Shown: in pieces, positions 1,086 through 25,169 of the stretch
Position numbering within the stretch: the stretch's first letter is position 1
How the letters are laid out: every line of letters starts with the position of its first letter
Source of the DNA: a virus
Reading direction: 5' to 3' (one strand)
Virus record (IMG/VR): IMGVR_UViG_3300023184_000413
Coordinates: 1-28,601 of that record
DNA length: 28,601 nucleotides
Made by a program: the position numbers and the translations under genes
Notes under the pieces: model-generated
Database searches by the model: none
The model's input: only the letters and a program-made list of their open reading frames with translations
Told to the model about the DNA's origin: nothing

Positions 1086-1570
1086 AATATATCTTTAAGC
1101 AAATAGACAATATCTCTGGCCGTTGTGCAGAGACTACTGTTGAATTTAGTGCCGATTCTCTTTCTGATATCGTGAACCAATTTGAAATGTTTATTCGTGG
1201 ATGCGGATTTTATCCACCAGGAGCTTTAGAATTTGTTGATGAAGAAGAATATTATGGTGAACCAGAAACGGAAGAAGAACCTGTTCATCCATGGACTCAA
1301 ACATTAAGAGAAGATGCTGAGTGGCCTTTCGCAAAAGAAAAACAACCAGAATCAATCTATGATGGTGATTTGAATTCACCTAGTGCAGGTGCTTCAGATA
1401 AATGGACAAGCCCATGGCAAGGTACTGCACCATCGGTTGCAATGCAATGGACTGTGGAACAATTAACAAAAGAAAAATCAGTTTGCCCAGTTTGTAAGAT
1501 TGATAATGAAACCATGGCACAACATGAATGCTGGGACGATAATTGTCCAAAAGGAAAAGATGCCGACTAA
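1082..1570 (+). CDS. conserved phage protein with C-terminal zinc-ribbon-like motif
   Basis: 162-aa protein of unknown function. The N-terminal part contains a MFIRGCGFYPPG stretch (36-47) followed by a strongly acidic segment (52-66) and W/P-rich stretches. The C-terminus has C135-x2-C138 and C150-x4-C155 with H148 between, which looks like a small zinc-binding knuckle. It starts inside the stop of the dsbA-like gene (ATGA) and its 3' end overlaps the start of gp33, so it is probably translationally coupled to both. Lying between two late-transcription genes, it may be a nucleic-acid or RNA-polymerase-binding factor, but that is inference from position only. Confidence 0.8.
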   Translation: MKYIFKQIDNISGRCAETTVEFSADSLSDIVNQFEMFIRGCGFYPPGALEFVDEEEYYGEPETEEEPVHPWTQTLREDAEWPFAKEKQPESIYDGDLNSPSAGASDKWTSPWQGTAPSVAMQWTVEQLTKEKSVCPVCKIDNETMAQHECWDDNCPKGKDAD

Positions 1571-1784
1571 AGATGAAATGGCAAAATTTGCTAAGTCTAT
1601 AGAAGAATACGTTGCAAATACAAACTACAATTACATTGAAGCAATTGTGGAATATTGCAAAACTACTGGGCTTGAAATCGAAGTGGCGGCCACATTAATC
1701 AACTCTAATCTAAAATCGAAGATTGAAAATGTGGCATTGGATAATAACATGTTAAAAGAAAAGGGTGCTCGGTTACCAATATGA
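1560..1784 (+). CDS. 33: gp33-like late promoter transcription accessory protein
   Basis: 74-aa protein in the position of T4 gene 33. T4 gp33 (112 aa) bridges RNA polymerase and the gp45 sliding clamp to co-activate late promoters. The visible similarity is the helical core (IEAIVEYCKTTGLEIEVAA) followed by LKSKIENVALDNNMLK, which matches the gp33 pattern of a short helix, SKIEN/EKIQ-like step and A(L/I)D(N/E)N(M/L)L. The start at 1560 is preferred over an upstream ATG at 1500 because it has an AAGGAA ribosome site and overlaps the preceding gene by only 11 bases. The stop overlaps the gp59 start (ATGA). It is shorter than T4 gp33, and I cannot see an obvious clamp-binding peptide at the C-terminus. 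Confidence 0.7.
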   Translation: MPTKDEMAKFAKSIEEYVANTNYNYIEAIVEYCKTTGLEIEVAATLINSNLKSKIENVALDNNMLKEKGARLPI

Positions 1785-3858: not shown

Positions 3859-3882
3859 ACCCCGCCTTGTGCGGGGTTTTTT
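3859..3882 (+). terminator. intrinsic terminator after gp32
   Basis: ACCCCGC (3859-3865) pairs with GCGGGGT (3871-3877) around a 5-base loop, followed by a run of six T (3877-3882). It is GC-rich in an otherwise AT-rich region. The T run reaches into the stop codon (TAA, complement of 3881-3883) of the convergent gene. On the - strand the hairpin is not followed by a T run, so it should act mainly on + strand transcripts. A weaker inverted repeat (AAACTAA 3827-3833 / TTAGTTT 3851-3857) lies just upstream. Confidence 0.88.
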
Positions 3883-5710
3883 ATGCGTTCTTAGTAACCA
3901 CTTGTGTGTTATTCACTTTAGCATAATTAATCATTGCTGGATTACCTTGTTTCATTTGCTCTCTATAACCAGCACTTATACTTGAAGACTCTGAATTCAA
4001 TTTAGCACCTTCAAATGTACCTTTGAATCCCTCATATTTTTGGTCAGCTATTAATCTAACAGGTTTGTTACCGATTGCAATTAATGATGGCGCACCAGTT
4101 TTCAATGGGTCATAAGTTGCAGTCATGTAATCTTGGAAGGAAGATTTGGTTCTGTGTTCAAAGTGTAAGTGTGGACCACTTCCGATACCTGTATTACCCA
4201 ACAAACCTATTACAGTGCCTGCTTTTATTTTGTCACCTTTTTTAACAAACATTTTATTCAAGTGAGCAAATCGTAATATTTCTCCATTGACTTTCAAATC
4301 AATCATATTACCATAACCACTATGTTCACTTGCATCAACAACTTCAGCATCTGCAAGTGTTTGAATTGGACTATTAACAGGAACACCGGCGTAATCAACA
4401 CCAGTATGTGGTTTCAATTCTTTCTTTACTGGATGAAATCTCATGCCATATAAAGAAGTTACTACTGCTTGTCCTGCTGTTGCTGGGTAATCTACTCCAT
4501 CATCACCACTACCTTCAACTTTTTTAGTCTTATTTGTTTTTTCGTTTTTAACATCTTCTTTGGTTATTGGAGTTGCTTGTTGTCCTTCATATGGGTTAAC
4601 TACTTTACCAAAATCTTTAGGTGTTTCTGGTGTTGGAGTAGTTGGCACACTAGAGGGTGCAGAAATACCAGTTGTGGATGAAGGTGATTGTGCATCTGGT
4701 CTTGTTGGTGCAATAACAGGTTTTTCTTTTAATACCGGTTCAAGGTTTTTATCAACTTCTGGTTTTAGTTTTGGTTGTTTTTCCGAAGGAACTTTTTCTT
4801 CTAGTTTAGGTGGGTTATTGATTAGGTCTTTTAATTTTTCAACCCAATCAATGTTTCTTTTAATAGAAGTTTCTTTTACTTTTTTTAGTACATCAATATC
4901 ACTTTGTAATTTTACACCTTCTGTTGCCAAAGAATTGATATACTCATCTCTTGCTTTTCTATCACTTCTTGTTTCAACTTCCTTTACATCTATTCCAAAA
5001 ACATCTAGTGCCAACCAACTCGCAAAAGATTTGGTATTAGTAATTAATAAATCTTTAGTTGAGACTAAAAATGAACGAATGTACCCAATTACTACAGATG
5101 GTAAATTTGAAATGGTTGAGAAAATTCCTTTGACAGTTTCCTCATCGGCTATACCTAGAGAAGAAAGTGTATCAAAGAAAACTCTTGATGCTTTTCTGAA
5201 AGGTGCAGCCCAATCAATTTTTTTGAAACCATCTTCCGCACCAGCCCAAAAATCTATTGCTTTAACTTCAAGGGAAGAAAACGCTTCACTAATAATTTTT
5301 CCAAGATTTGAAACTCCAACTAATACTGAACCAACAGTAAATGTCAACATCCAAAATAATAAATCAACAATTGAACCAAATGAAAAAGATTCTTTTTCTT
5401 CACCCTTTTCATTTTTCTTTTTAGGCATACTGATAAACAGTTGACGATTTGCTCTAGACTCGGTTACATTTTTGCCTAAATTTGTAGGTTCTGATGGTTT
5501 GATTCCTTCTAATTTCAATAATTTAATGAAACCGTTACTGATTTTTTTAAATTCTTGTGCAAGGGTTTTAAAAGACAAACCCAGCTTAGCAATAATTTTT
5601 AAAGATGCCTCTATCTCCAGACCTTCTTTTTCTGATTTTACTTTAGATGTTGGGTCTTCTTTTCTAAGTATTTTTTTTGAAAATACTGAACCAAAAATAT
5701 CTTTTAACAT
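3881..5710 (-). CDS. tape-measure-like tail protein with C-terminal M23 peptidase domain
   Basis: 609-aa tail protein. The N-terminus (residues 36-68, starting SLKIIAKLGLS and ending FIKLLKLEG) matches the same block in the two preceding large genes. A hydrophobic segment lies at 113-134. A Pro/Lys-rich linker (about 315-400) includes PDAQSP and FGKVVNPYEGQ. The C-terminal M23 (LytM-type) metallopeptidase domain spans about 412-530: LYGMRFHP near 417, the zinc ligands in HTGVD near 434, a FAHLN stretch, and GPHLHFEH near 510. The expected role is to cut peptide cross-links of the host wall as the tail penetrates. Its start overlaps the end of the GH19-bearing gene by 7 bases. Domain call is secure; the tape-measure role is inferred from the hydrophobic segment, paralogy and position after the gp26 region. 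Confidence 0.85.
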   Translation of the reverse strand: MLKDIFGSVFSKKILRKEDPTSKVKSEKEGLEIEASLKIIAKLGLSFKTLAQEFKKISNGFIKLLKLEGIKPSEPTNLGKNVTESRANRQLFISMPKKKNEKGEEKESFSFGSIVDLLFWMLTFTVGSVLVGVSNLGKIISEAFSSLEVKAIDFWAGAEDGFKKIDWAAPFRKASRVFFDTLSSLGIADEETVKGIFSTISNLPSVVIGYIRSFLVSTKDLLITNTKSFASWLALDVFGIDVKEVETRSDRKARDEYINSLATEGVKLQSDIDVLKKVKETSIKRNIDWVEKLKDLINNPPKLEEKVPSEKQPKLKPEVDKNLEPVLKEKPVIAPTRPDAQSPSSTTGISAPSSVPTTPTPETPKDFGKVVNPYEGQQATPITKEDVKNEKTNKTKKVEGSGDDGVDYPATAGQAVVTSLYGMRFHPVKKELKPHTGVDYAGVPVNSPIQTLADAEVVDASEHSGYGNMIDLKVNGEILRFAHLNKMFVKKGDKIKAGTVIGLLGNTGIGSGPHLHFEHRTKSSFQDYMTATYDPLKTGAPSLIAIGNKPVRLIADQKYEGFKGTFEGAKLNSESSSISAGYREQMKQGNPAMINYAKVNNTQVVTKNA

Positions 5711-8424
5711 GTTACTCTACTCAGTAAAAGGTCTGTAACTGAAATTTCTTTTTCTTTTTCAACTTGTCTAAATTTAACTGCATTGGTATTCTGAACTTCG
5801 GTAATATTAATGATATCATAATCTGTAGGTTTCTTTTGATTACGGTGACCCAAAAATATTTCTTTTGAATCGTATATCATTTTTTTACCTGTTTCAGGTT
5901 CTACAACAGTAAAGGCATTTGAGAGTATGTCGGTATCTTGTCCACCAACACCTTCTAAGTGTTTTAAAAGACCTTTCTTACTTTCTGCCGCAGCATAATT
6001 TTCTTTTGCGTGTTTTGTTAATTCGTCTTTGCCTTTCCACGAACCACTTCCACTAAACATATCTTCAGTTTTTTGTTTATCTAATGCCACGGCACCAGAG
6101 GCTACTGATGCTATGACTCTCTTTAATGCTTCTTCATCATCTGAAAAAGAATTTAGTGTTTTAATTCCCTTTTCTTTTCCCATACCCATCATAAAATAAG
6201 CAGCCATAACTTTAGCTGCTGTTCCAAAATCTTTCATAACAGCATCAGGGTCATTTTCTAAATCTATGCCAATTATTTTACCAATATCTCTGTAAATGCT
6301 TCGTCCAGTTACTTGAATAAAACCACGACCTCTAAATTTGTATCCATCACCTGGTTGTTTATTGGTTGTTAATCCATCATAAATGAAATTGAAGAAGTCT
6401 TCTTCACTCATTGAGTTCAACATTTTTTCCAATACTTCTTTTGGTACACCTTCATGTTTGTAACCTGGGTCTCCTGGTTTTATTTTTTTATCTGAACTAA
6501 AACCCATTTGTACAGCTACTCGGCCGCCTGGAGCAAGCATTACTAATTTTGAATAGATATAACTTATTCCTCTATTTTTAAGACTTGATAACCAACCTTT
6601 TGGTCCTGCTTCTTTTGATGCTGGATCCAAACCAGATTCTTTTGCTGCCGTTAGAATAAGTGCTTTTATTGCAGACTTATTTGTTATGCCCATTTCCATT
6701 AATGCTCTAGCAAAAGATTGTACTTTTTCTTTTTCACCACCTGGAGATTTACTTGGTGGTGCAGGAGTTTTTTCTTCTGGTCTTAATTTTGCCAATCGTT
6801 CATTCACATAAGGCAAATAAACTTTTGGAACACTTTCAATCTTTTCTTTTTTCTGATATACTGCATTGACCCAAGAGTTTATATTTGTGTCATTCACAGC
6901 AAACCATTGTGGAGAACCTTCTTTTGCTTTTTCGACAACTGGTTCTGGCTTAGGTTTAGCAGGCTCAGGTACAGGTGCAGCAGGTACAGGTGATGGTGCC
7001 TTTGTTGGCACAGATGGCTTTTCCACAGGAATTGAAACTTGACCCTCATACGGGTTAACTACTTTACCAAATTCTTTAGGTGGTTTAACAGGTGCTGCAG
7101 GTGCTACAGCTTCTTGTACTCTTTTTGGTAAAGCCGGAATAACTTTCTCATTTAAAAACTCTTGTGAAGCCTTTGCAATTTTTAATTTTATTTGATTTAC
7201 TTTTTTATAGTATTCAATAACTTTTATAATTTTTTGTTCTTCATTATCCAAATGTTGGATGTCATTCATCAAAGTTCTTTTTAGTTCCGCTTTTTTTCTA
7301 TTTTCGTTTGCAAGATTCGTTATGTACTCAGTCTCTTTTCTCAGAGCCTCTTCTGCTTCTCTTTTTTCTTTTTCAAATCTAAGTTGTTCTTCTTCTATCC
7401 ACTTATCATATTCATCTTGTTTACCTTTCATGTCAAAAGTTTTTTCAAGTGATTTCAAATATGGGTCAACAAATTCGGTTATTTTTTTGCCAATAAAATC
7501 AAAAGACTGTGAAACAATATCTTTCAATTTATTCCAAATCTCACCTAACCAATCAGTGAAAACATAAATGCTATCGGCAATATCTCTAGTATCAACCAGA
7601 CCAAGAGTAAGACCACTAAAAATACCAGAAATTGCACCAACGAACCAATTACCTTCACGGTCGGTTCTGGTCATTTCTTCTATTGCACCATCAACAGCAT
7701 CCCAAAGTATAAAACCGATAGTTACTATTAAACTACCAATTCCAAGAGTTCCAGAACCTGCGGCCGCAATAGTAGCTGCTCTTGCAGAGAATTTTGCTAG
7801 TGCTTTTCCACCTAGTTTTGGTATAATCTTCTTTAGAACATTGGCAATTTTTTCAAGTACAATTTTTCCTTTTTCAATAAAAAATTTACCTATTTCTTTA
7901 CCTTGAGTTTTAAACCAGTCTTTAATTATTTTTTTAAAATCAAATTTACTTAAAAAACTTGTTACTGCTTTTTTGAATTTATTGAATACTTTATAAAGGT
8001 TTCTGAATATTTTATTGTGTCTTAATTTTTTTAGTGCTGTGGCTTTTAGACTTCTTGTAAATCTTTTAATTTTTTTTCTAAAGATATTAGACAGTGCTCC
8101 GCCTTTTAAATTTGAACCATCATCTTCATCATCCTTTTTGACTTTGGAATCAATGTATTTGTCTTGGCGAACCTTAAAATTTATTTCTCGTTGGTCTTGT
8201 TTTAAATAATGTGCATCTTCTTTTTCTCTTGCCTCAATACCAAACAATTTCACCAATCTAATAATGTTTTGATTGGTTATGTTTAAGTCTTTGGAGATTT
8301 TACCTAGAAGTAGGTAATTTTTGGCAGCTTGTTGTAATGTTTTATCAACACCGAAACTTTTACCCAAACTAATTTTGGATAAAAGTGTTTGCCTAATATC
8401 TGCACCTATGGCTTTAGAATCCAT
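5704..8424 (-). CDS. tape-measure-like tail protein with GH19/lysozyme-like domain
   Basis: 906-aa tail protein, largest of three related genes. Residues about 35-62 (ending NIIRLVKLFGIE) and QDQRE at 76-80 match the N-terminal block of its neighbours. Residues about 215-241 are a glycine/alanine-rich hydrophobic segment like those of tape-measure proteins. Residues about 325-430 are a charged coiled coil, followed by an Ala/Pro linker with FGKVVNPYEGQ near 449. Residues about 565-790 look like a GH19 chitinase/lysozyme domain: ILTAAKESGLDP with a probable catalytic Glu, and GRGFIQVTGRSIY near 699 followed by IGIDLENDPD. It would cleave the glycan strand of peptidoglycan. It follows the 603-aa gene by 3 bases. 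The domain is clear; function in tail penetration is inferred. Confidence 0.83.
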   Translation of the reverse strand: MDSKAIGADIRQTLLSKISLGKSFGVDKTLQQAAKNYLLLGKISKDLNITNQNIIRLVKLFGIEAREKEDAHYLKQDQREINFKVRQDKYIDSKVKKDDEDDGSNLKGGALSNIFRKKIKRFTRSLKATALKKLRHNKIFRNLYKVFNKFKKAVTSFLSKFDFKKIIKDWFKTQGKEIGKFFIEKGKIVLEKIANVLKKIIPKLGGKALAKFSARAATIAAAGSGTLGIGSLIVTIGFILWDAVDGAIEEMTRTDREGNWFVGAISGIFSGLTLGLVDTRDIADSIYVFTDWLGEIWNKLKDIVSQSFDFIGKKITEFVDPYLKSLEKTFDMKGKQDEYDKWIEEEQLRFEKEKREAEEALRKETEYITNLANENRKKAELKRTLMNDIQHLDNEEQKIIKVIEYYKKVNQIKLKIAKASQEFLNEKVIPALPKRVQEAVAPAAPVKPPKEFGKVVNPYEGQVSIPVEKPSVPTKAPSPVPAAPVPEPAKPKPEPVVEKAKEGSPQWFAVNDTNINSWVNAVYQKKEKIESVPKVYLPYVNERLAKLRPEEKTPAPPSKSPGGEKEKVQSFARALMEMGITNKSAIKALILTAAKESGLDPASKEAGPKGWLSSLKNRGISYIYSKLVMLAPGGRVAVQMGFSSDKKIKPGDPGYKHEGVPKEVLEKMLNSMSEEDFFNFIYDGLTTNKQPGDGYKFRGRGFIQVTGRSIYRDIGKIIGIDLENDPDAVMKDFGTAAKVMAAYFMMGMGKEKGIKTLNSFSDDEEALKRVIASVASGAVALDKQKTEDMFSGSGSWKGKDELTKHAKENYAAAESKKGLLKHLEGVGGQDTDILSNAFTVVEPETGKKMIYDSKEIFLGHRNQKKPTDYDIINITEVQNTNAVKFRQVEKEKEISVTDLLLSRVTC

Positions 8425-11929: not shown

Positions 11930-12507
11930 TAGAATTTTTTCCGTGAGTCTGCGTAAACTTTACTTGTTGATGCACCAACAAATGATTCAACTGGCAACAT
12001 TGCAGCAATGTCCCATTCATCTGCGGCGATTTCCAAAAATCTGGATTCAATCTGTCTAAACAAATATCTTTTGATACATGGATTTGCCTCAAATATCTTA
12101 GAAGCTGCAGCCAAGTATCTGTAGTTAATTTTCAATTTTGTATCTTCATCATAAGTATCATTAGAGATTGTATCACTCAATTTATCTAACAAAATCATTC
12201 GGTATTTGGGATGAATATAATGAAGATTTAGACCTAGAAAACCATCATTATATCTTTGAATCGGAATCACCAATGGAAACCGGTCATAGTATGGCATTGT
12301 ATCTTTTGTTTTTGGGTCATAAAAATAGAAATACATTCTACCAATCATTGAACGATTTTTAAGTCTATTTCTATCATTCATCAATGCAGTTGAAGTTGGT
12401 TTCAAGTCTTTAACTTTTGAACGCAACCAAGCCCTAGACGCATTGGTTCTAGGTGTCAAACCTTCTTTTGCAAGTGATGTTTTGATTCTGTCAAGTAGTT
12501 TTGCCAT
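11929..12507 (-). CDS. conserved T4-like virion protein, possibly gp2-type DNA end protector
   Basis: 192-aa basic protein. The middle has a striking conserved-looking block: GRMYFYFYDPKTKDTMPYYD (56-75), then FPLVIPIQRYNDGFLGLNLHYI (77-98). The C-terminus contains KRYLFRQIESRFLEIAADEWDIAAMLP followed by a basic SKVYADSRKKF end. I recognise this as a widespread protein of T4-like phages of marine bacteria but cannot fix its function from sequence. In T4, gene 2 (DNA end protector) lies next to gene 4, and this gene lies next to a gp4 homologue, so gp2 is one possibility. It has no Shine-Dalgarno; instead GATAAATA ends 4 bases before the ATG. Confidence 0.7.
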   Translation of the reverse strand: MAKLLDRIKTSLAKEGLTPRTNASRAWLRSKVKDLKPTSTALMNDRNRLKNRSMIGRMYFYFYDPKTKDTMPYYDRFPLVIPIQRYNDGFLGLNLHYIHPKYRMILLDKLSDTISNDTYDEDTKLKINYRYLAAASKIFEANPCIKRYLFRQIESRFLEIAADEWDIAAMLPVESFVGASTSKVYADSRKKF

Positions 12508-12511
12508 CTTC

Positions 12512-12519
12512 TATTTATC
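12512..12519 (-). promoter_or_regulatory. GATAAATA late-promoter-like element before the gp2-like gene
   Basis: On the - strand GATAAATA directly follows the gp4 stop codon (TGA) and is followed by GAAG and then ATGGC. It matches 7 of 8 positions of the T4 late promoter TATAAATA, which lies at -13 to -6. With T4 geometry, transcription would begin at or next to the start codon. The same arrangement precedes gp25. Confidence 0.5.
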
Positions 12520-12966
12520 TCATATGCCTAAGTCTTTTTCAGTTAAGACTTTGAATTGCCAACCATGTTCTTTACAAAACAAATCGGCAGCTCTCCACTT
12601 TTCTTGGTTTACGGCATATGTTGCCGACTCTTGGATAAATCGTGCCGTTTTACGTTTTTGCACAGGTTGTTTCGTCTGTGACTCTGGCTTTATCTCTAGT
12701 ATCATTGTCGTCTCCTGACCATCTTTCCGTTTGATCCTGACGATGAAGTCTGGAAAGTAACGATGCACTTTTTGGTCGATAGGAGACTTGTAAGGTATTG
12801 GCAACTCTTCCGATGCAAACCAAATAACATTCGGATTATTATCTAACCATTTCAAAACTAAAAGTTCCCAACTTGAACGGTATATAACATTGTCTGCATT
12901 ACCATTATATTTGTTTCTATTTTTTACTTTATAAAAACCTTTATAAAAAGATTTTTCTTTTTTCAT
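12520..12966 (-). CDS. 4: gp4-like head completion protein (PD-(D/E)XK nuclease-like)
   Basis: 148-aa protein matching T4 gp4 (also called gp50, 150 aa), which is needed to finish DNA-filled heads before tail joining. The N-terminus reads FYKVKNRNKYNGNADNVIYR and SSWE (31-34), as in the family. HRYFPDFIVRI (68-78) and MILEIKPE (88-95) give a PD-(D/E)XK-type site: E34, D73, E91 and K93. This supports a nuclease fold, as known for TnsA-like gp4 relatives. It is followed by LFCKEHGWQFKVLTEKDL near the end. Its ATG overlaps the stop of the NUMOD3 gene (ATGA), so it is translated from the same message. Confidence 0.82.
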   Translation of the reverse strand: MKKEKSFYKGFYKVKNRNKYNGNADNVIYRSSWELLVLKWLDNNPNVIWFASEELPIPYKSPIDQKVHRYFPDFIVRIKRKDGQETTMILEIKPESQTKQPVQKRKTARFIQESATYAVNQEKWRAADLFCKEHGWQFKVLTEKDLGI

Positions 12967-13328
12967 TTTCTGAAACGAAGTTTTGCTTTTTCAGACATTT
13001 TTTTTCTTGCTTCTTCCGAATGTTTTTTACCAAACATAGGATTCAAATCACCAGACCTAGGTTTTCCATACATACCATTTTTTTCACCAATACATATTCT
13101 GGACATTCTAAAATTTTCATCTTTCAAAAGTTCTAATGTTTTTTCTCTTAATACTTGTTTGGTTTCTTCTGTGTGTTTTTTACCGTAAAAACCATTTAGC
13201 TTACCTTCAAATCCAGAACTACCTTCTAATTTTGGTATTGTTATAAAATCTGGACCATCAACATCAAAGAATTGATTTATCTTATAACAATTCATTTGTT
13301 GACTTTTTGAATTTAATTTTTTTGTCAT
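12963..13328 (-). CDS. orphan NUMOD3 DNA-binding protein (homing-endonuclease remnant or segregated DNA-binding module)
   Basis: 121-aa basic protein with repeated NUMOD3 helical DNA-binding motifs, normally found behind the GIY-YIG or HNH nuclease domain of homing endonucleases. Visible copies are NGFYGKKHTEETKQ (46-59), NGMYGKPRSG (85-94) and NPMFGKKHSEEARKKM (97-112). No GIY-YIG, HNH or PD-(D/E)XK catalytic motif is seen in the first 45 residues. It has the strongest ribosome site of the region (GGAGGT) and heads the - strand operon. Its stop overlaps the gp4 start (ATGA). So it is intact, expressed and coupled, but lacks a nuclease; it may be a degraded mobile element or a domesticated DNA-binding protein. 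Confidence 0.8.
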   Translation of the reverse strand: MTKKLNSKSQQMNCYKINQFFDVDGPDFITIPKLEGSSGFEGKLNGFYGKKHTEETKQVLREKTLELLKDENFRMSRICIGEKNGMYGKPRSGDLNPMFGKKHSEEARKKMSEKAKLRFRK

Positions 13329-13347
13329 TTTAAGACCTCCGATGACT

Positions 13348-13355
13348 TATTTAGA
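13348..13355 (-). promoter_or_regulatory. possible late-promoter element for the - strand tail operon
   Basis: On the - strand TCTAAATA (7 of 8 match to TATAAATA) lies 19 bases before the NUMOD3 ATG, leaving room for the GGAGGT ribosome site in a short leader. It lies in the only gap of the divergent region, so a promoter for the - operon is expected near here. The exact element is uncertain. Confidence 0.35.
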
Positions 13356-13376
13356 AAGAAACATTCCTTTATATGA

Positions 13377-13384
13377 CATAAATA
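13377..13384 (+). promoter_or_regulatory. possible late-promoter element for the + strand structural operon
   Basis: CATAAATA (7 of 8 match to the T4 late consensus TATAAATA) ends 29 bases before the gp48 start. With T4 geometry this leaves a leader of about 24 bases containing the ribosome site AGGA (13404-13407). It is in the divergent gap between gp48 and the - strand operon. Confidence 0.45.
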
Positions 13385-13413
13385 CTATCTATAACACCTT
13401 TACAGGAATAAAC

Positions 13414-14715
13414 ATGGCTTTTTTCGGTCTATCAGACATATCGTTCAACAAAGGAACTGGTGCCACTAGAGGTCCTTTGGCGTCACTATCTGGCAGTGAA
13501 TTTGAACAAACAACTTTAAGATATCCTTTGGATGTTGGAAACTACGATAAGTCACACTATGTTGTGTTTTATATAAGACAACAAAAAAATAGTGCGTTTC
13601 AAAGACCACAGTCTCGGTCAGATATGATGGGTACTTTTGATAGTGACAATTACAACAATATGGATGTGAAAGCTGGTGGAACATCAATTTCAAATTTGAC
13701 AAATAAAGTTGGTGGTGAGATTATTAATAAGGTAAATTCAGCCTTTGGTAAAGTTAATGAAGTAACTAACAACAAGTTGGCAGGTTTAACAGGTGCTCTT
13801 TCTAAAGGAATTACCAATGTTGTTGGTGGTGTAGGAAACATATTTGCATCAACACCAAATGTGAATCTTGGTGGTGGTTCATCAGAAACTTCTGCTGTTA
13901 TTGATAATTCAATTAAAAGAATTTCTAGAAAGGGCAATGTTGAATTTGACCGTCCAACATATTTGACTACAGATGCTATTGCATTGTATATGCCTGACAC
14001 CTTAGCTTATAGTTATACTCAATCATATGAATCTATAGGTACAGGTAATGAATTTGCCGGACAAGCTATAGCCATGGGTAAATCAGCACATGATGCTTAC
14101 AAAAATGGTGGCTTAGCAGCTGCTGGTGATTCTATGAGAAAATCCGCTACTGAGAATATAACAGAAATTTTAGCAAAGACAGCCGGAAAAGCTTTATCTA
14201 GTGATAATACAGCTAAACTATTTTTAGGAAATGTGATGGGTAGGGTTGTTAATCCCATGTTGGAAATGCTCTATCAATCTCCAAACTTTAGAACATTCCA
14301 ATTTGAGTTTCTTTTCTATCCAAGAGATGAACGTGAAGCTTTAGAAACTCAACGTATTTTGGAAAGATTTCGTTTTCACCAGGCACCAGAAATTTTAAAA
14401 GAAAATGGTGCTTCTGCTGGTGGATTCTTAGTTCCACCATCAGAGTTTGATATTAGATTTTATTATTCTGGAAGTGAGAACCCAAACATACCTCAAATCT
14501 CAACTTGTGTATTGACTACTATGGATGTCAACTATGCACCAAATGGTTGGTCATCATATGAAGTTCCTGATGAATTCAAACCAAGTATTGGTAGAACAGG
14601 TATGCCAACTGCAATTCAAATCACATTAAGTTTCCAAGAAACCACTTATTTGACAAAAGATGATTTTGATGAAAAATTAGTCAACTCAAATAGTACTGGC
14701 GCAAGAAAGACTTAA
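13414..14715 (+). CDS. 48: gp48-like baseplate tail-tube cap protein
   Basis: 433-aa protein of the gp48 type (T4 gp48 is 364 aa), which joins the baseplate centre to the tail tube with gp54. I prefer ATG 13414 (MAFFGLSDISF) to an in-frame start at 13342, because AGGA precedes it and the extra 24 residues would cover the putative promoter. The N-terminal third has LRYPLDVGNYDKSHYVVFYI. A low-complexity Gly/Asn/Val-rich stretch follows (about 95-165). The conserved C-terminal part contains SPNFRTFQFEFLFYPRDERE near 289-308 and an RFRFHQAPE stretch, ending with MDVNYAPNGWSSYE and ITLSFQET. It is the first gene of the + strand baseplate operon and directly abuts gp53. Confidence 0.78.
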   Translation: MAFFGLSDISFNKGTGATRGPLASLSGSEFEQTTLRYPLDVGNYDKSHYVVFYIRQQKNSAFQRPQSRSDMMGTFDSDNYNNMDVKAGGTSISNLTNKVGGEIINKVNSAFGKVNEVTNNKLAGLTGALSKGITNVVGGVGNIFASTPNVNLGGGSSETSAVIDNSIKRISRKGNVEFDRPTYLTTDAIALYMPDTLAYSYTQSYESIGTGNEFAGQAIAMGKSAHDAYKNGGLAAAGDSMRKSATENITEILAKTAGKALSSDNTAKLFLGNVMGRVVNPMLEMLYQSPNFRTFQFEFLFYPRDEREALETQRILERFRFHQAPEILKENGASAGGFLVPPSEFDIRFYYSGSENPNIPQISTCVLTTMDVNYAPNGWSSYEVPDEFKPSIGRTGMPTAIQITLSFQETTYLTKDDFDEKLVNSNSTGARKT

Positions 14716-17671: not shown

Positions 17672-17983
17672 ATGCCAGCAGTCGCAAGAGATGGAGATTC
17701 AACAACTACTGGTCACGGTTGTGATTCAGTAACCACAGTGACTGGTCCAACAGGTTCACCGGCTAAAGTATATGCAAATGGCATTCCTGTAGAATGTAAA
17801 GGTAATCCTGTTGCACCACATACAATACCTTCTGGACCTGCTTGTGTAGACCATCCAGATGCGGTAATTAATGTTGGTTCAACTAAAGTTTTTGTTGGTG
17901 GAATAGCACTTGCGAGAATCGGTGATTCCACAGATAACGGTGAAATTATTACTGGTTCTCCAAATGTCTTTGCCGGCGGATAA
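17672..17983 (+). CDS. PAAR-repeat spike tip protein (gp5.4-like)
   Basis: 103-aa PAAR protein that caps the gp5 needle. Features are the N-terminal PAVARDGDSTTTGHG, the repeated glycine-turn beta pattern (VYANGIPVEC, NVGSTKVFVGGIALARIGDS) and conserved potential zinc ligands H15, C42, H50, C58 and H61. T4 gp5.4 has the same role. The gene is only two bases from gp5, as in many contractile systems. The stop (TAA) directly abuts the GATAAATA element before gp25. Confidence 0.88.
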   Translation: MPAVARDGDSTTTGHGCDSVTTVTGPTGSPAKVYANGIPVECKGNPVAPHTIPSGPACVDHPDAVINVGSTKVFVGGIALARIGDSTDNGEIITGSPNVFAGG

Positions 17984-17991
17984 GATAAATA
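17984..17991 (+). promoter_or_regulatory. GATAAATA late-promoter-like element before gp25
   Basis: GATAAATA directly follows the PAAR stop codon and is followed by GAAA and then ATGGC, nearly identical to the element before the gp2-like gene on the other strand. 7 of 8 bases match T4 TATAAATA. gp25 has no Shine-Dalgarno of its own. Confidence 0.5.
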
Positions 17992-17995
17992 GAAA

Positions 17996-23107: not shown

Positions 23108-25156
23108 ATGTCAACAACAAAGATTACCTCTTTACCAGTATTATCATCACCTTCTGCAAATGCTGAAAACACAGTATTTGTGGTTGTTGATAAGAGTAGT
23201 GGAACCGCAACGACAAAACAATTAAGTCTACAGAATTTAGATTTGTTTGTTGATAATGTTGGTTCTGTTGCTTTTGCACAAGCTAACGCTGCGTATAATC
23301 AGGCCAATACTGCAAACTCTAATGCTGCAACTGCTAATACAAATGCAGGTTTGGCAAATACTAGTGCTGCAGCTGCAAATACTAATGCTACTAATGCAGG
23401 CACTTATGCCAATGCGGCCTTTGCGAAAGCCAACTCTGCGAATGTGTTGGCGCAACAAGCGTACAACGCAGCCAACTCTGCGAACACATTTGATTATACA
23501 ACTATTGCAACTTCTGCTGGTTTTTACGGTGATTCTATTTCTGTTGCATCATTTAACTTGGCCGCAAATGGTCGTGTCATTAGTGCATCAAATATTGCTA
23601 TTACTGGTTTTGCAAATTCAACATATGCGACTTCTGCATATGACAAGGCCAACTCTGCAAATGTTCTTGCACAAGCCGCTTTTAATGCCGCAAACACAGA
23701 AACAATAGGTACCGCAGCGTTTGCAAAGGCCAATAGTGCCAACGTACTTGCACAACAAGCATATGATGCCGCAAATTCTGCCAATGCACCATTTTCTCAA
23801 GCTGCGTTTGATAAGGCAAATTCTGCAAATGTACTAGCACAGGCCGCATACGATAAAGGTAACTCTGCGAATGTATTGGCACAGACTGCCTATAATGCTG
23901 CCAACTCTGCGAACACTTTTGACTATACAACCATTTCAACAACCGCAGGTGTTTATGGTAACTCAACATATGTTTCAGTTATTACCTTGGCGGCCAATGG
24001 TCGTGTCAGTTCTGTAACAAATACTGCAATCACAGGATTTGCCAATTCAACTTTTGCATCAGCATCATTCGACCAAGCAAATGCAGCTTTCAATAAAGCA
24101 AATTCTGCAAATGTATTGGCACAACAAGCATATGATTATGCCAATACAGTTACTATCACTCTGAATAATGCATTTATTACTGCATCCAGAAATACTGCCA
24201 ATTCTGCGTATGCACATGCAAATGGCGCCTATGATGCCGCAAATAATGCTCTCTCAACCGCATCACTATCTTGGTTGACTGCAAATAGTTCAGACACAAA
24301 AGCAACTTCTGGTTACGCACATGCGAATGGTGCTTTCAATAAGGCAAATAGTGCAAACGTAATTGCACAGGCCGCATTTGATACTGCCAATACTAATGCG
24401 GGTGTTATTACATCTTCATTCACACAAGCAAATGCTGCTTTTGATAAAGCAAATTCTGCTAATGTATTGGCACAGGCTGCGTTTGATACTGCAAATACTG
24501 GTAGTACAACTGCAAGTGCAGGATTCAATCAAGCAAATACTGCCACTACAATTGCACAATCTTCTTATGATTTTGCAAACACAGTTAGCACTTATGCAGC
24601 ATCGGCATATGCGACTGCAAATACTAATGCAACAACAATTTCAACTGTATCAACCAGAACCAATTCTGCATACGATACTGCAAATACCGCACTTACATTT
24701 GCCGCACAAGCAGTAAGTTATGACAATCAAGCAAATGCCGCATACGATGCTGCAAACTCTGCGGTAATCATTGCAAATCAAGCAAACACAACTGCAAACA
24801 ATTTGGTTGTAACTGCACAATCTATATTGGATAAAACTAATGCTGCATTTAATCAAGCCAACACAGATGCAACAACTGTTTCTGTTACATCAGGAACTTA
24901 TGGCAATTCAACAATAGTTCCCATTGTTACTGTTGCTGCAAATGGCCGTATTAGTTCTATTTCAAACACTTCAATAGCATTTACTGCAAATACTTTAGTA
25001 TATGTTGGTTCTGCACCATCTACAAACAAAGGTACGACTGGTGATACCAAAGGTATGGTATATCTTGCCAACAATTATTTCTACTATTGCACCGCAACTT
25101 ACACGACAGGTACTGCCAATATTTGGAGTAGAATTTCATCAACTGACGCTTGGTAA
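23108..25156 (+). CDS. repetitive tail fibre protein
   Basis: 682-aa fibre. Residues about 55-125 and 170-270 and 315-585 are built of Ala/Asn-rich heptads (ANTANSN, ATANTNA type; AKANSANVLAQQAY occurs in eight versions), giving a long Ala-zipper-like coiled coil. Three shaft modules of the form AGxYGNSTxVxVxTLAANGRVSS are at about 130-168, 273-314 and 586-627. The last 50 residues are a typical fibre cap: VYVGSAPSTNKGTTGDTKGM, then a YFYYCTATYTTG stretch ending IWSRISSTDAW. Trimeric receptor-binding or support fibre is likely. It lies between gp7-like and gp8-like genes, which are neighbours in T4. AGGA precedes the ATG. Confidence 0.82.
   Translation: MSTTKITSLPVLSSPSANAENTVFVVVDKSSGTATTKQLSLQNLDLFVDNVGSVAFAQANAAYNQANTANSNAATANTNAGLANTSAAAANTNATNAGTYANAAFAKANSANVLAQQAYNAANSANTFDYTTIATSAGFYGDSISVASFNLAANGRVISASNIAITGFANSTYATSAYDKANSANVLAQAAFNAANTETIGTAAFAKANSANVLAQQAYDAANSANAPFSQAAFDKANSANVLAQAAYDKGNSANVLAQTAYNAANSANTFDYTTISTTAGVYGNSTYVSVITLAANGRVSSVTNTAITGFANSTFASASFDQANAAFNKANSANVLAQQAYDYANTVTITLNNAFITASRNTANSAYAHANGAYDAANNALSTASLSWLTANSSDTKATSGYAHANGAFNKANSANVIAQAAFDTANTNAGVITSSFTQANAAFDKANSANVLAQAAFDTANTGSTTASAGFNQANTATTIAQSSYDFANTVSTYAASAYATANTNATTISTVSTRTNSAYDTANTALTFAAQAVSYDNQANAAYDAANSAVIIANQANTTANNLVVTAQSILDKTNAAFNQANTDATTVSVTSGTYGNSTIVPIVTVAANGRISSISNTSIAFTANTLVYVGSAPSTNKGTTGDTKGMVYLANNYFYYCTATYTTGTANIWSRISSTDAW
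23267..24870 (+). repeat. heptad / SANVLAQ repeats in the tail fibre gene
   Basis: The encoded protein repeats KANSANVLAQxAY(D/N)xAN eight times with single substitutions (VIAQ once, DKGN once), between stretches of free heptads. The copies differ at many third codon positions, so the repeats are clear in protein but weak in DNA. They are interrupted by two of the three YGNST/AANGR shaft modules. Confidence 0.85.
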
Positions 25157-25161
25157 TGATA

Positions 25162-25169
25162 GATAAATA
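25162..25169 (+). promoter_or_regulatory. GATAAATA late-promoter-like element before gp8-like gene
   Basis: GATAAATA lies 5 bases after the fibre gene stop and ends 7 bases before the gp8-like ATG (AAACACT between). As in the other two cases, no Shine-Dalgarno is visible between element and start codon. Confidence 0.45.

Follow-up and report, generated by a model that had tools for sequence, protein, structure and literature searches.

Late mRNAs that begin at or very near their start codon, produced from T4-type late promoters, are quite probably the best explanation of the layout found upstream of three structural genes in a 28.6 kb IMG/VR fragment of a T4-like phage (28,601 nucleotides; hereafter, the window). 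The boxes in these promoters would be read by the RNA polymerase of the host together with the phage factors gp55 and gp33, and transcription would begin on the start-codon A or no more than 1–3 nt away from it. Late mRNAs of gp2, gp25 and (nearly) gp8 would then be leaderless, with ribosomes recognizing the 5′-terminal AUG instead of a Shine–Dalgarno (SD) site. In this group of phages, each late gene has one of two layouts, namely, the box followed by 4–7 nt and ATG, or the box followed by a leader of approximately 18–42 nt, often with an SD. The promoter activity of the boxes, the position of the RNA start and leaderless translation are all inferred from sequence.

The proteins encoded in the window match the T4-type families gp59, gp33, gp32, gp2, gp4, gp25 and gp8, together with other structural ones (representative features in Table 1). 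Kyanoviridae are among its nearest isolates (S-PM2, Melnitz, HTVC008M and Mosig), with amino acid identities of approximately 30–45% for gp25 and gp8. The T4-type box GATAAATA was present at all three sites and matches exactly the late consensus NATAAATA of T4 and cyanophages (PMC2984593, PMC2988020). The T4 late promoters, which depend on gp55, gp33 and gp45, have the same box without a ‒35 element and serve late structural genes in a phage that encodes both gp33 and gp55. Here, the bases upstream of the boxes were coding sequence in most cases, and the boxes precede the structural genes gp2, gp25 and gp8. A gp33-like gene, with an SD-like AAGGAA before its ATG, lies in the window; the fragment itself contains no gp55, which was found in three long freshwater relatives (G013, G014 and G016) and in HTVC008M, Mosig and Melnitz.

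Table 1. Late boxes and associated genes in the window
Feature	Position	Strand	Details
gp33-like late transcription co-activator	1560..1784	+	PHROG 254, E 1.9e-15; ORF from 1500
gp2-like DNA end protector, 192 aa	11929..12507	-	ATG 12507-12505; PHROG 429, E 6e-55
gp2 late box GATAAATA	12512..12519	-	T4-type; GAAG spacer (12508-12511), 4 nt to ATG
ATAAATA box, leadered class (internal control)	13378..13384	+	29 nt to tail-tube-cap start; AGGA in leader
Baseplate tail tube cap (gp48-like)	13414..14715	+	ATG 13414; PHROG 230, E 5e-49
gp25 late box GATAAATA	17984..17991	+	T4-type; GAAA spacer (17992-17995), 4 nt to ATG
gp25 baseplate wedge subunit, 135 aa	17996..18403	+	PHROG 261, E 2e-47
gp8 late box GATAAATA	25162..25169	+	AAACACT spacer, 7 nt to ATG; near-leaderless variant
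gp8-like baseplate wedge subunit, 517 aa	25177..26730	+	PHROG 438, E 5e-83

A sequence-only reading of the window had described a stop codon, the box, GAA(G/A) and ATGGC in direct succession before the gp2-like gene and gp25. Both cases were confirmed, with TGA (12522–12520) preceding the box of gp2 on the minus strand and TAA (17981–17983) that of gp25 on the plus strand. The same reading had counted gp8 as a third case; the box is indeed present, but its spacer is longer and five extra bases (TGATA) follow the stop codon (TAA, 25154–25156). Each of the three genes lies behind a co-directional gene that ends 0–5 nt before the box, and the exact 17-mer GATAAATAGAARATGGC was found twice in the record. 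Counted on both strands, ATAAATA occurs five times in the window against 12.2 expected from dinucleotide shuffles, and three of these five sit 4–7 nt before a start, compared with an average of 0.20 for the other A5T2 heptamers. The number of GATAAATA copies alone was not over-represented in the window (3 observed, 1.76 expected) and was not used as evidence; within the window, GATAAATA is non-random in position, not in number.

As the window is a fragment, enrichment on a genome-wide scale was examined in relatives. A near-DNA search against isolated phages gave no match, and relatives were therefore sought by protein, using gp25 and gp2 and without consulting the upstream DNA. A scan with GATAAATAGANNATGGC, which is biased by its own pattern, served only to find long contigs and was excluded from the conservation counts. 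All 74 distinct gp25 upstream sequences carried the box 4–5 nt from ATG (72 at 4 nt and 2 at 5 nt), as did all 54 distinct gp2 upstream sequences at 4–6 nt (36, 17 and 1 at 4, 5 and 6 nt, respectively), while 20 of the 22 distinct gp8 upstream sequences had it at 6–7 nt (17 at 6 nt, 3 at 7 nt) and the other two had longer spacers. In the gp25 upstream alignment, the box columns reached 1.8–2.0 bits compared with mostly less than 1 bit in the flanks; the upstream sequences drift among relatives, while the box and its distance stay constant, with variation at the first base of the box as in NATAAATA. The layout was also found at orthologues with 33–45% amino acid identity, for gp25 at 4–5 nt in G013, G014, G016 and HTVC008M and for gp2 at 5 nt in HTVC008M, Mosig and Melnitz. 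The sequence-only reading had named a box not enriched upstream of starts as what would refute its proposal; in relatives, the box instead shows strong enrichment beside start codons, at a constant distance. Its proposal of a gp33/gp55-type system that drives leaderless late messages is supported by this enrichment together with the gp33 and gp55 genes.

The tail-tube-cap family carries the same box with a variable leader of 22–42 nt in 100 of 100 relatives, indicating that the short spacing is a trait of particular genes and not of the promoter generally. The longest ORF call for this gene in the window (13342–14715, plus strand) begins upstream of its own late promoter, for which reason the start at 13414 is preferred over 13342; 13414 is the likely start, and automatic gene callers may overextend the protein by 24 aa here.

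To describe the spacing more generally, we measured the distance from box to ATG for ORFs of at least 100 aa in the freshwater set and in the isolates infecting SAR11 and OM43. The distribution was bimodal, with a sharp group at 4–7 nt, very few cases at 0–3 and 8–16 nt, and a broad group beyond. In the freshwater set, whose counts are dominated by gp25 and gp2, spacings of 4, 5, 6 and 7 nt were found 141, 29, 23 and 10 times, compared with 4 cases at 0–3 nt and 5 at 8–16 nt, and in the SAR11/OM43 isolates 19 cases were at 5 nt and none at 4 or 6 nt. That spacings shorter than 4 nt hardly occur suggests a need to keep the complete AUG within the transcript. At 4–7 nt, neither GTG nor TTG was used as a start codon, compared with 203 (freshwater) and 20 (SAR11/OM43) cases of ATG; this strict preference for AUG over GUG and UUG is as expected of leaderless mRNAs. 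A few sites with an 8-nt spacing (HTVC008M, L338:19699 and L341:9414; Mosig gp25, L368:9815(-); gp2 in L412 and L414–L418) resemble the 5-nt layout with one additional in-frame codon (ATT or GTT) before ATG, and would have either a leader of 3 nt or perhaps an initiation codon other than AUG at +1.

Some bacteria initiate translation without an SD at A-rich starts. Since the box is A/U-rich and touches the start codon region, it might be a ribosome-binding or translation-enhancing signal, for example an A/U-rich site of the S1 type or a conserved context of the start codon, rather than a promoter. We regard this as very unlikely, because ATAAATA was enriched 6.7- and 9.3-fold at 4–7 nt over other A5T2 words, with no enrichment of words of equal composition. 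The same word also stands 22–42 nt before other late genes with a leader and directly after terminators, and it matches the late consensus exactly (PMC2984593, PMC2988020). Moreover, no other A5T2 word is as rare in the relatives as ATAAATA, which fits counter-selection acting on a promoter sequence. The corresponding value at 4–7 nt was only 0.3-fold in T4, Syn9, S-PM2, BUCT-ZZ01 and vB_OspM_OC.

The SAR11 phages HTVC008M and Mosig and the OM43 phage Melnitz carried start-fused boxes at exactly 5 nt, before gp2 in all three; the gp25 box is start-fused in HTVC008M and lies at 8 nt in Mosig. The tail tube gene has the box at 5 nt in HTVC008M, Mosig and G013 and at 18 to 36 nt in G014, G016 and Melnitz, indicating that this gene switches between both layouts, with none seen in between. 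Late boxes also precede tail tube, tape measure and baseplate genes in HTVC008M and G013. HTVC008M, Mosig and Melnitz differ from the window in their spacing of 5 nt instead of 4 nt, in a YR initiator, and in having divergent and terminator-isolated examples.

The T4 late promoter TATAAATA occupies positions ‒13 to ‒6 (PMC2988020), so that a 5-nt spacer places +1 on the A of ATG. At the 5-nt sites of the SAR11/OM43 phages, a pyrimidine was found at ‒1 in 20 of 21 cases against a background of 52% (p=2e-5); this usual YR initiator gives an independent hint that the A of ATG is the start point. The leaderless reading is very likely to hold for these SAR11/OM43 cases. The freshwater 4-nt sites showed no such preference (pyrimidine at ‒1 in 41 of 109) and had a conserved G directly after the box in 90 of 109, as at 12508–12519 and 17984–17995 in the window, suggesting that the SAR11 rule is not that of the freshwater 4-nt sites. 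This conserved G also creates an in-frame TAG two codons before ATG. The earlier expectation that T4 spacing puts the transcript start at the start codon therefore holds for the 5-nt spacer, but not directly for gp2 and gp25, with 4 nt, or gp8, with 7 nt. By strict T4 numbering, a 4-nt spacer puts +1 on the U of AUG, and either a start 1 nt closer must be assumed or the rule differs; for gp8, the leader would be about 1–3 nt. From box geometry and spacing, we consider a leaderless message probable for gp2 and gp25 of the window, and only slightly favoured for gp8.

The sequence-only reading had further argued from the SD, which it found missing before the three genes and present at other starts. 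Clear SD-like sites do occur at the starts 813, 2947, 11162 and 13328, but most operon-internal starts have none, including 8424, 12966, 14716, 16708, 17672 and 20462. A missing SD was therefore rejected as a decisive sign of leaderless messages, as many coupled genes of the window also have none. The three genes with the start-fused box do generally have no SD, and SD-like 4-mers were found in 1 of 74 gp25, 0 of 54 gp2 and 0 of 22 gp8 upstream sequences.

The close packing of these genes raises translational coupling, in which translation on long late messages started upstream would re-initiate just past the adjacent stop codon; the box would serve mainly downstream genes, and its nearness to ATG would reflect compaction. 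The three boxes of the window begin within 0–5 nt after a stop codon, many neighbouring starts without an SD clearly depend on close packing, and an upstream gene may share its frame with the additional TAG that lies two codons before ATG at 4-nt sites. Coupling fails to explain a spacing fixed at 4–5 nt with sharp edges at 3 and 8 nt, or the 22–42 nt kept behind the same box at the tail tube cap, and it is inapplicable to divergent back-to-back promoters or to genes located right behind intrinsic terminators. We consider it unlikely overall; for the tandem genes of the window it is the main rival and could still apply.

Natural controls of both kinds were found. Intrinsic terminators (‒16.8 to ‒20.3 kcal/mol) were predicted upstream of 5-nt boxes at Mosig gp2, Mosig tail tube, G013 tail tube and two HTVC008M genes, with a gap of 0–8 nt between terminator and box except at Mosig tail tube (about 20 nt); these terminators speak against transcripts that read in from upstream. 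The divergent genes gp2 and gp4 of HTVC008M are separated by 26 bp in all; with both start codons, this region (L336:18914-18945) reads CAT-gttac-TATTTAT-at-CTAAATA-aggat-ATG, with each box 5 nt from its ATG, and two leaders do not fit in it. When all IMG/VR contigs were scanned for back-to-back boxes with 5/5 spacing, 65 places matched, and at 51 of these an open gene lay on either side, representing 17 different gene pairs; the 8/8 spacing used as a control gave 17 places, with genes on both sides in only one, a truncated case. Back-to-back gp2/gp4 boxes were also seen in L437, L439, L440, L443, L461, L478 and L494, and divergent boxes were seen between 16 further gene pairs, in contigs of up to 517 kb (L453).

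As a caveat on the divergent case, an alternative ATG of HTVC008M gp4 is possible 45 nt downstream. This, together with the unremarkable count of GATAAATA in the window, would favour an account in which translation truly begins at other positions or the boxes arose by chance. Such an account is extremely improbable, given that 128 distinct gp25 and gp2 upstream sequences preserve the layout and that the N-termini of both proteins are conserved across relatives. In addition, in-frame stops two codons upstream rule out longer forms of gp2 and gp25; in the gp2-like ORF, these stops are at codons ‒2 (a TAG formed by the box) and ‒5.

Start-fused boxes were at or near chance level in T4, Syn9, S-PM2, P-SSM2, KVP40, IME13, BUCT-ZZ01 and vB_OspM_OC. 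The T4-like phages phiM12, phiM9 and Cr30, which infect alphaproteobacteria, were likewise at or near this level and had no 5-nt layout, and the layout was therefore rejected as a trait of alphaproteobacterial hosts. T4 differs from the window and its relatives in having no box 4–8 nt from the ATG of any ORF of at least 50 aa, and its late genes have leaders, usually with an SD. The cyanomyoviruses S-PM2 and Syn9 belong to the same family, Kyanoviridae, and share the late promoter motif NATAAATA (PMC2984593); together with P-SSM2, they differ in that start-fused boxes are present only at chance number.

Leaderless mRNAs are well known, as are T4 late promoters, and the cI message of lambda transcribed from PRM is a known leaderless mRNA with a 5′-terminal AUG. 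Mycobacterial leaderless transcripts (PMC4633059) share the 5′-terminal AUG, the missing SD and the exclusive use of ATG. Unlike known leaderless mRNAs, those proposed here, on the evidence of genome sequences, would be linked to a dedicated late promoter of the phage, and to structural genes within a virus family. In the open-access literature that was searched, no account was found of T4-like phages making leaderless late mRNAs. The Melnitz paper predicts 15 late promoters and, in the passages searched, does not discuss leaderless messages (PMC9004378); the one mention of the term found in a T4-like phage paper cites a gene caller.

Late transcription of the T4 type is a textbook system of which leaderless late messages are no part, and the start-fused combination appears to be undescribed. 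In core genes of head and tail, a deep and widespread branch, comprising freshwater viruses and phages of SAR11 and OM43, which are among Earth's most numerous bacteria, appears to have joined the late promoter directly to the start codon. This bears on translation in streamlined hosts and gives a sharp prediction for cultured phage–host pairs. A late box 4–5 nt before ATG also marks the true start, a precise signal for gene callers and promoter annotators. Speculatively, and with considerable doubt, the late programme might run on two tracks, in which a defined set of structural genes is expressed from leaderless mRNAs and others from messages with SD leaders. A late shift of the ribosomes, caused by the phage or by a starved host, with fewer initiation factors and more 70S initiation, would favour the leaderless set and thereby control timing or stoichiometry.

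Other features were also observed in the window. A homing-endonuclease-like ORF (12963–13328, minus strand; PHROG 314/655) lies upstream of and overlaps the gp4 start and adjoins the gp48 promoter region. Two large virion-type proteins (3881–8424, minus strand) have domains that, judged by eye, resemble cell-wall hydrolases, with an M23-peptidase-like region at 3881–5710 and a GH19/lysozyme-like region at 5704–8424. Finally, a putative tail fibre (23108–25156, plus strand) contains many Ala/Asn-rich repeats (AYNKANSANVLAQAAYDAANSAN).
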